Shown here in pieces: positions 25,686 through 32,426 of a stretch of DNA of 64,000 nucleotides. The DNA lies in contig JAGTXK010000219.1 in NCBI GenBank assembly GCA_019096195.1, positions 558,001 to 622,000 of the forward strand. The letters run 5' to 3'. The translations under genes and the position numbers were made by a program. The notes below the pieces were generated by a model. The model ran no database searches. It was not told the DNA's origin and saw only the letters and a program-made list of their open reading frames with translations. The stretch is from Boletus sp. NGJ (Eukaryota > Basidiomycota > Agaricomycetes > Boletales > Boletaceae). Position 1 is the stretch's first letter. Each line of letters opens with the position of its first letter.

Positions 25686-28015
25686 ATGCACACCGCGCTC
25701 GCCAGATCACCACTCAGGCGGTTCTACCATGCATCTGTCCTTCCATCCCTGCTCTCAACAACCTCTTCCGAGTTCCACCAAAAGGCAGCGAGCATGGATG
25801 CTCTCGTCTCAGATCTGAAAGCCAAGATTGCCCTGGTAAAAGAGGGTGGGGGTCCCAAGGCTCAGGATCGGATGCGCAACAAGGGTAAACGATTACCGAG
25901 GGAGAGGTCAGTCTCGGTCCCCCACTCGCCAGCACGCCTTCACACCGCTCTAGACTGTCCTTACTTCTGGATCCAAACACGCCTTTCCTAGAACTGTCAC
26001 AGCTGGCTGCACACGATGTATACCCCGGAGAGAACATCCCTGGTGCCGGAATCATCACCGGTATCGGGCGAGTGGCTGGCAAGGAATGTCTCGTCGTGGT
26101 CAACGACGCTACCGTAAAGGGAGGCTCATACTATCCTTTGACGGTGAGCAGAGCCGCTCTACAAGGGTATTGGGAGACCTCACGCCTCTTCCGCAGGTAA
26201 AGAAACACCTTCGGGCTCAGGAAATAGCTCGAGAACATGGGTTACCATGCATTTACGTCGGTAGGCGTTTCCACTACGTCGCTTTCGGCTTCACGCTCAC
26301 CAGACACAGTGGAATCTGGCGGTGCTGCTCTTCCCCATCAAGCTAATGTGCGTCCAGCATCTCGAAGCGTATCACCACGTGCGTTAATATCGCTGATACC
26401 AGGTATTTCCAGACAAGGAGCATTTTGGTCGAATTTTTTACAACATGGTTCAGTGGAGTCATTGCTAGACTATCGGTCGACGTTGACACACTCGTAGGCC
26501 CAAATGTCTGCGCTCGGCATCCCACAGATAGCCTTGGTGCATGGTATATCTGTCGCTGGTAAGCTCACAGTTCTTCTTCTTCGTTCCCCGCGTTGACGTA
26601 TATTAGGTGGTGCTTATGTCCCTGCCATGGCCGACGAGAATATTATTGTTCGTGAACAAGGGCGCATCTTTCTTGCTGGTCCCCCGTTGGTCAAAGCGGC
26701 CACAGGCGAGGAGGTCGATGAGGAAGTATTGGGCGGTGGCCAAATGCACTCTAGCGAGAGTGGTGTAACCGATCATCTTGCGAGAGATGATGAACACGCG
26801 ATAGCCATTGCACGGGAGATCGTCGGCGACTTGGGAACTGCAAGTGGGCAAGCCGTTGGGGTGAGCGCTGGTAGTGCACAATGTCACGGGTCGCGTTACT
26901 AAAGATAAATCTAGCCTCCCGTTCCGCCCGGAGACCCGTTATACCCTGCGTCCGAACTACACGGTATAGTCGGTACCGATCTCCGACAAACCTTTGATAT
27001 GCGAGATATTATTGCACGAATTGTGGATGGTAGTCGGTTCAGAGAATTCAAGAAGGAATATGGCCCCACAATCGTGACTGTAACGCACTTTCCCTTGAAA
27101 GTGATAATAAAATTGACTTTTCACGGCTTGCCAGGGATTCGCACACATCCACGGGTATGAAGTTGGCATCGTCGCCAACAATGGCATTCTCTTCTCTCCC
27201 TCGGCATTAAAGGCTACCCATTTCATCCAACTTTGTTCTCAACGAAAAATACCGCTACTTTTCCTTGTGAACGTTACAGGTGTCGTTCGTCCATCGTGAT
27301 GTATAGCGTATATCCTGACATTGCTGCAGGCTACATGGTAGGTTCAAAGGCCGAAAAGGGAGGGATAGCGAAGGATGGCGCAAAGATGGTCCGAGCTGTG
27401 GCATGTGCAGACGTTCCAAAGTTGACCGTCATTGTCGGTGGTAGTTTCGGTGCGGGGAACTACGGTAGCGATTTTATACGGATCTTATAACACGACGAGA
27501 CTGATGCCCATATGTGTAGGAATGTCAGGACGCGCGGTGAGTTGTTTCATCCTCTTTCCGGACTACCCGTTCTAAAGTAGCTTCAGTATTCGCCGCGTTT
27601 TCTGTGGATGTGGCCTGTAAGTCCCACGAACACTATCTAGTCCGAAAATTGGCTGAGAGTACCTCAGAATGCAAAAGTATCTGTTATGGGATCGGGACAG
27701 CTCTCGCAAGTGATGTCAACCGTCTCGAGGTTTATATCTGTCTCATGATTTCAGCACGCTTCTGATGAGCTTTTGGCTAGGGATCCGAACCAGCATAGTA
27801 GTTTGAAGGCCGAAATAGAAGCGCAATCGACGGCGCTCTATTCCACCGCTCGTTTGTGGGACGATGGCATTATTCAGCCTACAGAAACCCGTGATGTAGT
27901 TGGGCTTGCGCTTGCGCTTGCATCCAGGAGGGGTTCATATGCACGCACACCGCGAGTCGAGGGTTCCTCCACTTGGGAAGGGTCAGGGAGCGGATTCGGT
28001 GTCTTCCGAATGTAA
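25686..28015 (+). CDS. MCCC2: Methylcrotonoyl-CoA carboxylase beta chain, mitochondrial
   Basis: The carboxyltransferase subunit of the biotin enzyme that converts 3-methylcrotonyl-CoA to 3-methylglutaconyl-CoA in leucine breakdown. A mitochondrial presequence ([17 protein letters not shown]) precedes [20 protein letters not shown]. Conserved blocks appear across more than ten exons: [145 protein letters not shown]-like (spliced as GYMVGS), [38 protein letters not shown] and [20 protein letters not shown]. The C-terminus FGVFRM and the stop at 28013-28015 fit the family. MLH3 starts 160 bp downstream on the same strand. Confidence 0.93.
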
Positions 28016-28176
28016 TTAGTGCATTCGATCGACGTTGCCAAATGCAGTTGTTTTGTTCTGGGGGAGGGGCGCCAAACAATACCGCATACAACTTCTATCC
28101 CAATTTTACAAGTAGACCAAGTCTCTACGCGCATTATAAGTTACGGGAGACATCCCAGTGCCTCATCACACAAAAC

Positions 28177-31100
28177 ATGGCGGACGAGGCGCTTTTAAAG
28201 AAGTTGTCTGCAGAGACGCGGACAAAACTACGTTCAACTCAAATTCTGACATCTCTGCCCACCATAACCTCCGAGCTCTTGCAGAATGCTATCGACGCTC
28301 GAGCTTCACAGATTGACATAGGTGTCGACTGCTCCGAATGGAGTTGCTGGGTCATGGACAACGGATCGGGATTCACGAAAGATGGCTTGCATAAAATCGG
28401 ACAGGATTCAGAGCGTGGGTGGTACAGTGAGTTGTTCATGTTTTTCTTCCATTCCGCTGGGTCAACCCTTATTTCATAGATTCTTCGAAAGCTTACACTC
28501 CTGCCTCACTGGAAACAGTTTCCACCTTTGGCTTCCGAGGAGAAGGTAACGAATCGATGATAATGAAGCCCGTGATGCGCATTCACATCTCACCTGCAGC
28601 TTTGGCTTCCATGGCGGATCTCGCTTGCATGGAAATTTCATCTCGTACAGCAAGATCTCGCGAAAGTTGGTCCGTCATTGTCAAGGTATTTTCGGTCAGG
28701 ATCCCTCCTATTATGGCTGACACGCGCTCTTCCAGGCTGGAAAGTCTCTTTACATAGGTCCATCGATCCGTTGGCGAAGAGAATCCCCCGGAACCGTCGT
28801 ATCGATCCGTGATGCATTCTTCAGCGTTCGTGTCAGTCTCGGCTAGAACGCACGTGTGGTGACAATTGAACAGCTCCCAGTTCGCCGTCAGTCTCACCCT
28901 ACGCCAAACAAGACCATCGAACTGATCCGGCAAGAAGTCGAGGCATACGCACTGGTATTCCCGAATATCTCCTTCTCATTTCAGGATGCGAGCAAGACCA
29001 AAGAAAGTCACCATCCCCACAAGTCACATGTCCTCAAGATACCAAAGGTGATGGTGCACCCATTTCCAACGCTTTACTTCCATCTCACGCTTCTATCCGA
29101 TCAAGACTCGTTCCACTCTTGCGGCGTTCCGATATTTCTATGGCCGTGCATTCACAGAGGAAAGTATATTTCTGTTTTAGCACCTGTCCATGATTGTCAT
29201 GGAATTTGCATTCCCCAGTGCGTGGAAGAGATAGCTGCTACTTCCGGCCAGCTCCATATTGAGGGGTTTATCTCACTTGTTGGAGCATATACAAAGGTAG
29301 AACACTTTGCATTCTATTCCCCTATCTGATGCTCCTCGGCCCGACAGTCATACCAATTCTTGTGTAAGTTACATACGGCTAGACCCTGGTTTAGTCACAT
29401 TACCCTTGTCCAGATATCAATAGACACCCGGTATCATTCTGTGACCTCCACCGATTAATCGACAATCGCTTTGCTGCCAGCACGTTCGCGAAACATGTAT
29501 GACAGAGGTCTTTATTGGGAAACCAGCTGAGAAATTCTCGTCCTGCAGGCATATGACGAAGGAGGGGAGACGAGCTTGCGCCCATGTCGGTTTCTTGTTC
29601 CGCGCCATAGGAGATAATCTCATCGAAATTGTCCAGCTGCGCGCCGGTCTCCCCGTAAGGGAGAGAAGAAGCCAGTTTACGTCCTGAATTTGGCCATTCC
29701 CGTGAAGCACATTGATAAATGCCTGGAACCCTCGAAATCAATAGTTGGACTGGATGTGGGCAACACTCGCTTCTTCCTCGGCTCAGTGCCATGCTGACCT
29801 TCATGCGCCCCAGAATAAAAACGTTGTGACTTCCTTCTTATCTGCAACTATCCATTCATTCTTGGTTTGCCACAATTTTGCACCCGATAAGAGAAGGAAT
29901 GAGAATTCCGAAGATAGCAACCCGAGGAAGAAGCCGCAAGTTTGTCCCAGAGAGTTCAGCTAATCTAAAGGCGCCGCCAGGTTCAGTCCAGTCCGAAAAT
30001 GGGATGTCCAAGCTATCTGACCATATGGTACGTGCCTCGATTTATGCATATAGTTTTCAATCTATTTAGAAACTACAAGGGAAAGATGCTTGGAGTTGAT
30101 GCGGAGGGGCCGGTCTGGGAAAATCCACCAACCGGGGAAACCGTCATCGATAACCGTACAGGGAACTCCTATCATCAAAGCGCTCGTTTTACCGTGGGCA
30201 CTGATGGACCAATTGAGGGGAGGCGAACAGTGCAAATACCCCGACTCACAACCGAGGAAAACGATCAAAATAAGAACAATGCTGATGGAGACCACATACC
30301 TAATTGGCTGCGAGAAGCTCTACAGGTATGCTTCTTACCCCCACACCGCGTGCTGCACCACGTCATTGAGACTACTGAAAGGCCAACGACGCCTTTGCGC
30401 TTAAAGAGCCAAAGATACCCTGTCTCCCCCTATTGATAAATCAGCATACCGACTATCGGAGTTCTCAGCTTCACTACAGTTGTCACACGGGTTGTCCCAC
30501 ACACCGGGCGATCTCGAGCCGGTGCCTTCAGCCTGGCTTGGCTGGTCTTGCCGCGTCTCAAATACGTTTCCGGAAAGATGATTTACGGAAGGCACGAATT
30601 ATTAGTCAAGTGGACTGCAAGTTTATTGCATGCGTTGTCGGTCTGGACCACGATGATCCTTCGGGTGCACAGAAGATATGTAAAGATGAACCTCTGGCGG
30701 ATGGGAAAATGCTCATCCTAATTGATCAACACGCCGCGGATGAACGTGTACGTGTCGAACGATTTTTGAAGTCAATTTGTCGTGGCTTTCTTTGCCATCA
30801 GGAAGGAAGTGGAGGCGTGGAGACGAAGCAGTTGTTTCCTCCGGTACCTGTCTTACTTACCAGGCACGAAGCTTCTCGTCTCGCGGAGCTGTCGGATTTC
30901 CAGATGGCATTCGAATCGTGGGGTTTCCGATTCTCTGGACTCGAAGAAACTCAGTCCGGGCTAGAGCATGAAACAGAAATTGATAGTGGCTATATTCAAA
31001 TCTTTGTGAGCGCCATTCCCGAAATCGTGAGCGAAAAGGTGCGTGCAGACGGGATGTGAGCTGTGAAAGTTCGCTGAGATTGAATCACAGCTATTATTGG

Positions 31101-31605
31101 GCAAGGAGATGCAGGAACTCGTCAAGGGATACATTGGTGCATTGGAGAGTCGGGAACTTGAACCACGTGAACCATCATCCCAGCATGATCATGCAAGTTC
31201 AGACGAGGAGACGCAGTGGCTTAAGGCCCTACGATGGTGTCCACGTGAGCTCCTCGACCTGATCAACTCAAAGGCTTGTCGAGGTGAGTGAATTCTACAT
31301 TCACTATGCACAAAGGCTCAACAACTTGCCAGGTGCAATCATGTTCAACGACCCCTTGAGCACCGAACAATGCGAGCGATTAGTAAAGCAACTGTCATCG
31401 ACTGTTTTTCCGTTCCAGTGTGCGCACGGGAGGTAAGCCTGCTATATACCATCAGCAATTGTTCCGTTGCCTCGAATGGATAGCCAGCGTTTATTTATTT
31501 TACTTTTTCCTTAGGCCATCCCTCGTGCCTTTGACGCGTCTCACCCCAAAGAGTGGAGGAACGAAAGAAACGGGGTTAGAATGGGAAAACGTAGCTGCAC
31601 TGTGA
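28177..31605 (+). CDS. MLH3: DNA mismatch repair / meiotic recombination protein MLH3
   Basis: A MutL homologue; with MLH1 it forms the MutL-gamma endonuclease that resolves meiotic crossovers and assists mismatch repair. The N-terminal GHKL ATPase has [11 protein letters not shown] (motif I, E-x3-N kept), VMDNGSGF (motif II) and TFGFRGEALASMA (motif III). The C-terminal endonuclease has the metal-binding motif [24 protein letters not shown] and [14 protein letters not shown] (Cys-x-His metal ligands), as in MLH3 and PMS1 types. These last motifs are split by introns at about 31284-31332 and 31431-31514. The middle linker (about 29800-30400) is poorly conserved. The presence of all nuclease ligands predicts an active enzyme. 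The start [11 protein letters not shown] is at 28177. Confidence 0.93.
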
Positions 31606-31672
31606 TGAAGTCGCACCTGGCCCGCCTCTACCGACGACGAGCGGACGAAGATCCGAAGATGCAGAGGTCGCG

Positions 31673-31719
31673 TGACGTCAATACGTCATGACATGTGGCG
31701 TGCTGGGGAGTATATATAA
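31673..31719 (+). promoter_or_regulatory. CRE/ATF-type elements and TATA box of the RTC3 gene
   Basis: A perfect palindromic TGACGTCA (31673-31680) is followed at once by a second inverted half-type site TACGTCA (31682-31688), and 22 bp further by TATATATAAT (31711-31720). The start codon is 105 bp beyond the TATA box. bZIP factors of the ATF/CREB family bind such sites; stress or cAMP control is inferred. Confidence 0.6.
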
Positions 31720-31824
31720 TAGAAAGAGGCGCAGTCCCTTTCAATTCCTCTTAACCTCAATCGCCATCCATCTTTGTATCGTAAATTGTCGTCTTGACAT
31801 ACCCAGTAAATTGACATAGCCGCC

Positions 31825-32426
31825 ATGCCAAAGAACGTCACCAAAGTCGTGTATAAACCAGATACGCAATCCACGGACGAGTACATGATCATCGTCAATC
31901 ATGGAGAGGTAATTCACCGTGTTTCGATGCTCGATGCCGATCTCTGACGTGTGCGATGTTGCAGTTCAAGAAATGGAAGTCTGGAGGTGAGCCTCTCTTT
32001 CTACGGGGATGACTATATCACTGATTTTATCACTTTCAAGACACGTAACTGCACATGTTTGTTTACGAGTGCCTTTTGACTGATTGCTTGTCGCCCCTTT
32101 AGGTCGATCCCTCTCGCAGAAGTCGTCGATTGTATGTGACATGAACCCTACTTCAGGCTTCGATAGCAACACTCATCTTATTTTCAGCATTCGAAATATT
32201 TCATTCGTCTCAGGGTTCGCAAGGGTATCTCGGCCGTCCTTCCAAACAACAACTTGAAAACGATTTTGGAACGTCCAAGGATGTCGAGGTTGTTAAAGCG
32301 TTGTTGGAAAGGGGCAAAGAGCAATCGGGTGAAGGATTCCATTCTGGAACCTTTGGTACGAACGCTACGAGATTCAGAGGAAGCGCCATTCTGGACAACA
32401 AGGGAAAAGGTTTGTCGGGCATCTGA
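31825..32426 (+). CDS. RTC3: RTC3-like protein with SBDS N-terminal (FYSH) domain
   Basis: A small protein of 125 residues related to yeast Rtc3/Yhr087w, which shares the N-terminal domain of the ribosome maturation factor SBDS and is linked to RNA metabolism and stress. Five exons: 31825-31908, 31965-31986, a 4-nt micro-exon 32041-32044, 32103-32131 and 32188-32426. Their total of 378 nt is exactly 126 codons. Recognisable segments are TKVVYKPDTQSTDEYMIIVN, FKKWKSGDTSIPLAEVVDSF (the GDT junction made by the micro-exon), FEIFHSSQGSQGYLGRPSKQ and LENDFGTSKDVEVVKALLE. Without the micro-exon, the family segment SIPLAEVVDSF cannot be read in frame. The promoter holds two CRE/ATF sites and a TATA box, which suits a regulated stress gene. 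Confidence 0.88.
32041..32044 (+). other. Internal 4-nt micro-exon ACAC
   Basis: Flanked by ...TTTCAAG (acceptor of a 54-nt intron, 31987-32040) and GTAACT... (donor of a 58-nt intron, 32045-32102). Both introns have a CTGAT-type branch point. Inclusion gives the codons GAC ACG between GGA and TCG; skipping it shifts the frame. Confidence 0.75.

Follow-up and report, generated by a model that had tools for sequence, protein, structure and literature searches.

A predicted four-nucleotide exon in the Rtc3/SNOR gene of a bolete

How is the reading frame of a conserved gene carried across a stretch of 116 nt when the exons on its two sides, joined directly, fall out of frame with each other? This question is raised by the Rtc3/SNOR gene (SBDS_N) at 31825-32426 on the forward strand of the window, by which we mean the whole 64,000-nucleotide stretch of Boletus sp. 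NGJ DNA that was analysed. The original prediction was that five exons, one of them the four bases ACAC, make up 126 codons with the family segment intact. Our count agrees with this: the five exons together have 378 nt, that is 126 codons including the stop. They encode a product of 125 residues, and on this product the Pfam domain SBDS_N (PF01172) scores 78.5 bits against a cut-off of 24.6. The features of the gene are listed in Table 1.

A search of the genome (32.8 Mb) gave two matches, both at this locus, so that within the reach of this search the gene is single-copy. Two solved relatives matched the product significantly: C21C3.19 of Schizosaccharomyces pombe and, from yeast, entry 1nyn, which we take to be YHR087W. 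C21C3.19 is Rtc3, since renamed SNOR, which is described as binding dormant ribosomes and helping translation to restart (PMC13345908). The contact residues given there include E43, D46, K68, Q69, E72, N73, H96 and R97, at positions that contact uL16, rRNA and eIF5A in fission yeast (PMC13345908). H96 and R97 fall outside the alignment with the window protein, and the six aligned residues are all identical in it, at 43, 46, 66, 67, 70 and 71. By analogy with the S. pombe protein, that of the window may also bind ribosomes and act in their restart. Among the best 120 of 557 matches we also noted a record filed under the fish Scophthalmus maximus (P0142), which resembles mushroom Rtc3 and, lying on a contig of 446 bases, is probably a contaminant of that assembly.

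Table 1. Features of the Rtc3/SNOR gene as predicted with the ACAC exon; positions are those of the window.
Feature	Position	Strand	Length (nt)	Sequence or content	Basis
Exon 1	31825..31908	+	84	start codon to Glu28	spliced profile alignment to 121 relatives
Intron 1	31909..31964	+	56	GTAATT..GCAG	spliced profile alignment
Exon 2	31965..31986	+	22	FKKWKSG and first base of Asp36	
Intron 2a	31987..32040	+	54	GTGAGC..CTGAT..CAAG	sequence; spliced alignment
Predicted micro-exon	32041..32044	+	4	ACAC; last 2 bases of Asp36 and first 2 of Thr37	best of 7 in-frame parses; shuffles; Imleria deduction
Intron 2b	32045..32102	+	58	GTAACT..CTGAT..TTTAG	sequence; spliced alignment
Exon 4	32103..32131	+	29	SIPLAEVVD; contains inner CAG ending at 32119	
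Intron 4	32132..32187	+	56	GTATGT..TTCAG	spliced alignment
Exon 5	32188..32426	+	239 with stop	remainder of SBDS_N domain and C-terminal tail	

Exon 2 ends in TCT GGA G (31986) and exon 4 begins with G TCG ATC (32103), and the 116 nt between them contain AAG|ACAC|GTAACT. With ACAC included the message reads GGA GAC ACG TCG ATC, giving GDTSIPL where the family consensus is GDTTIPL, and the junction expected in the spliced message is GGAGACACGTCG. Failed splicing at this site has one of three outcomes. Skipping of ACAC (31986 to 32103), for which the expected junction is GGAGGTCGATCC, is a frameshift, with the frame lost after residue 35 and reading on to 146 residues; retention of intron 2b brings an immediate stop after residue 37 (GAC ACG TAA), and retention of intron 2a an early stop after residue 43. 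Each of the two introns beside ACAC is complete in itself, having a GT-AG donor and acceptor, a usual size, and a branch-like CTGAT that ends 15 nt (2a) or 18 nt (2b) before its last base.

All parses of the region with up to two GT-AG or GC-AG introns, each of 40-150 nt, were enumerated and scored against a profile of the family segment. Of 167 relatives fetched, the 123 that fit the regular pattern went into this profile; the bolete models P0029, P0038 and P0012 were excluded. From 86 parses only seven were in frame and free of stops, and the best of these was the one with ACAC flanked by a 54-nt and a 58-nt intron, exactly at the coordinates originally predicted. Its score of 64.1 bits compares with a median of 60.5 and a minimum of 29.6 among the segments of the 123 relatives. 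Five of the other in-frame parses reached at most 27.6 bits. The second-best parse, at 58.7 bits, has a single intron of 112 nt with GC-AG ends (31991-32102, GA|GCCTCT..TTTAG|G), in which case exon 2 is longer by 4 nt (GTGA), the message junction is GGAGGTGAGTCG, and the protein, KSGGESIPLAEVVD, is of equal size with GGES in place of GDTS. That ACAC is required for the conserved frame is borne out; this single intron, absent from the alternatives first listed, also restores the frame but matches the family a little less well. The single GC-AG intron is only 5.4 bits behind the ACAC parse and inside the range of the relatives, and its GGES occurs in one of them (P0075).

The interior of the 116-nt stretch was shuffled 20,000 times with dinucleotides kept, allowing micro-exons of 1-37 nt. 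Some frame-restoring, stop-free micro-exon was present in 3,671 of the 20,000 shuffles, and 865 reached the 10th percentile of the relatives. The observed score of ACAC was matched in only 19, and in only 2 when branch-like motifs in both halves were required as well, which bears out that such an exon is rare by chance. Among real GT-112-AG stretches of the window (n=474), 200 were frame-rescuing, 71 came to the 10th percentile and 2 to the observed score. Because frame rescue alone is common in the shuffles, the specificity of the result rests on the exact Asp-Thr match.

The local splicing habit was taken from the neighbouring gene for the methylcrotonoyl-CoA carboxylase beta subunit (MCC-beta, 25692-28012), which was aligned, with splicing, to a profile of 60 relatives drawn from the best 120 of 7999 matches. 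The 13 introns found in it are GT-AG without exception and have 47-55 nt, with the donors, in order, GTCAGT, GTGAGC, GTAGGC, GTGCGT, GTTCAG, GTAAGC, GTGAGC, GTAACG, GTGTCG, GTAGCG, GTGAGT, GTAAGT and GTTTAT. Five of these 13 donors have no G at position +5 (GTTCAG, GTAACG, GTGTCG, GTAGCG and GTTTAT), so that the donor of intron 2b, GTAACT, is ordinary here. In this small sample of 13 introns, the 54- and 58-nt introns fit the local habit and a single intron of 112 nt does not, the longest neighbour having 55 nt and none of the 13 being GC-AG. GC donors usually have a supporting context, and this is absent from GCCTCT, which also speaks against the single intron. The same gene has an internal exon of 17 nt (27520-27536) flanked by introns of 55 and 50 nt; the exon after it measures 30 nt. 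MCC-beta and Rtc3/SNOR adjoin in the window (25692-32426), and among the matches listed (best 120 of 557 and best 120 of 7999) this adjacency may recur, as Chiua virens, Gyrodon lividus and Phlebopus sp. carry both on contigs of the same size, and in Amanita phalloides MCC-beta and Rtc3/SNOR are numbered 001677 and 001675.

Spliced alignment of the Rtc3/SNOR gene itself, with GC made 6 bits dearer, chose the micro-exon when an intron cost 4 or 8 bits. At 12 and 14 bits, GC again being 6 bits dearer, it chose the GC-AG intron, and did so also at 8 bits if GC was priced as GT. Since the choice shifts with the intron cost, spliced alignment by itself does not settle between the two. An unsupervised splice-site model trained on 264 kb of the genome was set aside, because control donors were nearly as frequent as GT (TT 71 and AC 65 versus GT 80, at a threshold of 9).

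A further point concerns the 54-nt intron, whose donor, branch-like site and acceptor are left unexplained by the single GC-AG intron. In the models of three other Agaricomycetes, Tetrapyrgos nigripes (P0063), Epithele typhae (P0068) and a Moniliophthora (P0074), an intron in the position and phase of 31987-32040 has been translated; it begins at GGE (G|GTGA), its end lies directly before Asp, and the sequence then continues unbroken with DTSIPL or DTTIPL. An intron at the position of 2a in all three indicates that this intron is older and shared, and their unbroken sequence after Asp-Thr makes intron 2b look derived. As far as these comparisons of sequence go, it seems to have been added later, on the side of the boletes. 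The check proposed at first, in which relatives with a single ordinary intron and without added codons would have counted against the exon, did not go that way among the relatives compared: their segments carry both residues, Asp-Thr standing in P0063, P0068 and P0074 in the exon after the read-through intron. The exon itself probably arose through the gain of a second intron, or through recruitment of a new acceptor and donor, 4 nt downstream of the older intron. That introns 2a and 2b are copies of each other was not detectable (their local score was reached in 344 of 2000 shuffles), and a genome search that skipped very common words matched the 119-bp stretch nowhere else; we therefore claim neither a duplicated-intron nor a mobile origin. 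Scanning viral_contigs for the spliced junction in degenerate form gave 0 matches.

Gene finders were expected to miss an exon of 4 nt, and the deposited models of two boletes confirm this. The protein P0029 of Butyriboletus roseoflavus (J3R82DRAFT_4167) could be regenerated letter for letter from the window DNA if translation starts at 31956 (within intron 1), 31986 is joined directly to 32103 and 25 nt at 32132-32156 are removed as an 'intron'. The window thus belongs to this species or to one with the same sequence at this locus. This deposited model is the skipped product: exon 1 and the 4 nt are missing from it, and exon 4 is read out of frame. It bears also on the possibility that the frame break is an assembly error or a sign of a decaying gene, with a sequencing slip or a mutation in one intron of 116 nt. 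A slip would presumably look like just such a small, frame-breaking discrepancy. However, P0029 is recorded on another contig (3,192,927 bases) than that of the window (1,441,963 bases) and the sequences agree letter for letter, though both contigs may derive from the same reads; moreover, the remaining exons match the family throughout.

The second model is P0038 of Imleria badia, which lacks the 4 nt. It is identical to another record, P0007 from a 903-nt contig, outside the region of the micro-exon. At the site P0007 reads EFKKWKAGDTSIPL, with Asp-Thr, and the VQEMEGGRSIPL of P0038 corresponds to exon 2 translated in a different frame. There are 200 codings of the peptide that fit both records; with skips of 1-12 nt tried, exactly 4 nt were absent from the model in all 200. 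A displaced GT or GC donor, a displaced AG acceptor, or both, as the cause of the gap were excluded in every one of the 200 codings. P0007, having an uninterrupted frame of 122 residues on its 903-nt contig, is probably derived from RNA, and if so, with the same start of exon 2 and canonical boundaries in the model, Imleria would have a 4-nt exon here. A second bolete genus therefore appears to share the exon, as deduced from protein records; in the NCBI taxonomy Butyriboletus is placed in the Boletoideae and Imleria in the Xerocomoideae. That Imleria shows the same 4-nt skip also speaks against an assembly error or a decaying gene, which we hold to be very improbable. The Asp-Thr of P0007 and the exclusion of a displaced donor likewise speak against the single GC-AG intron, which, with the lack of such introns in the neighbouring gene and an intron in three other Agaricomycetes at the place of the 54-nt intron, we regard as unlikely.

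Seven named models from six species of Boletaceae, with the family of Butyriboletus and Imleria taken from NCBI, include four that are disturbed at the site (P0012, P0029, P0038 and P0065) and three that are intact (P0001, P0003 and P0004, from Chiua virens, Boletus coccyginus and B. edulis). The intact models neither support nor oppose a sharing of the micro-exon, and of the disturbed ones a skip of 4 nt could be decoded in P0029 and P0038 only. The model of Lanmaoa asiatica (P0012), which reads KSGGLDGIVHGTGILSSAFEIF, was rejected as support, since it could not be decoded in this way; a hidden micro-exon could explain its disturbance. A bolete-like protein (P0095), whose genomic-looking frame continues across introns, has TFRTIPLVEVVD leading into exon 4; of its 576 codings, 192 allow an acceptor at the position of 32102 and none allows one at the older position. 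This is consistent with the micro-exon but does not distinguish it from a longer exon 2.

The models of Gloeophyllum trabeum (P0054), Ganoderma sinense (P0093) and Boletus edulis (P0065, with further changes) were also rejected as support because they go to the inner AG. They bring in the alternative that the inner CAG of exon 4 is used in the window as well (31986 to 32120), in frame and free of stops, giving KSGEVVDSF without DTSIPLA. On the family segment such a form obtains -4.0 bits, and on SBDS_N 61.5 rather than 78.5 bits; it drops seven residues kept by the 123 of 167 fetched proteins that match the full segment. The three annotations look like escapes of the gene finder, and we give this form hardly any credence. 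We consider it very likely, in contrast, that ACAC is a constitutive 4-nt exon between two ordinary short introns, with which the RNA of this species would be spliced.

Whether 4 nt would suffice for exon definition is of small weight here, with all 13 introns of the neighbouring gene in the 47-55 nt range, as introns of about 50 nt are probably recognised as whole units. Introns 2a and 2b, both complete with donor, branch-like site and acceptor, would be removed one after the other. They would hardly be engaged simultaneously, because the acceptor of 2a and the donor of 2b are only 4 nt apart; the same point, that full splicing complexes hardly fit on both sides of a tiny exon, has been made for plants (PMC8831610). 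After both removals Asp36-Thr37 would be present and the frame kept, including the positions that match the SNOR contact residues. This order of removal, like the history of the exon given above, is inferred. Perhaps the competing introns also serve as a brake or switch, whereby slow, mutually exclusive removal leaves 2b, with its immediate stop, in part of the messages. We hold this to be improbable; if true, the level of a ribosome-restart protein would follow the splicing capacity or the nutrient state of the bolete.

Exons of ultra-short size are already known, and the bolete case adds to them. A 1-nt exon is reported in CYP621A of Fusarium (Nelson and Syed 2026, PMC12940212); like the one described here it is an ultra-short fungal exon in a conserved motif, restores the phase, was missed by automatic models and was detected by protein alignment. 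It differs in its size (1 nt versus 4 nt), in lying in an ascomycete P450 and in being crossed by 18 RNA reads according to that report, whereas the micro-exon of the window is predicted here from DNA and protein records. APC11 of Arabidopsis also has a 1-nt exon (Guo and Liu 2015, PMC4674806). This exon and the plant micro-exons of Yu et al. 2022 (PMC8831610) resemble ours in being tiny coding exons that are often unannotated, and they are conserved in relatives, as ours may be; unlike ours, the APC11 exon lies in an intronic stretch of 422 nt and is described from reporter constructs and sequenced cDNA. Frequent introns of 45-55 bp and very short exons are reported for P450 genes of Phanerochaete chrysosporium, a basidiomycete that is in this respect like the window, although the shortest exon stated in that account is 6 bp (PMC1184071). 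In Xlr2 of Trichoderma virens, too, the inclusion of a fungal micro-exon decides the protein, but there it is a switch described as glucose-dependent (PMC11121469), whereas the bolete exon is predicted from sequence. Among the matches listed in our literature search, by titles and openings of abstracts, we found no bolete micro-exon and no basidiomycete exon of 4 nt.

This evidence indicates that a 4-nt exon can evolve and be kept in a conserved gene of a basidiomycete whose introns measure about 50 nt. Public bolete models lose in this way a protein whose fission-yeast relative aids ribosome restart, and the signature of the frame break can be used to find further such exons in fungal annotations. 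The locus also offers a clean setting, provided by nature, in which to study how splicing complexes keep out of each other's way over a distance of 4 nt.
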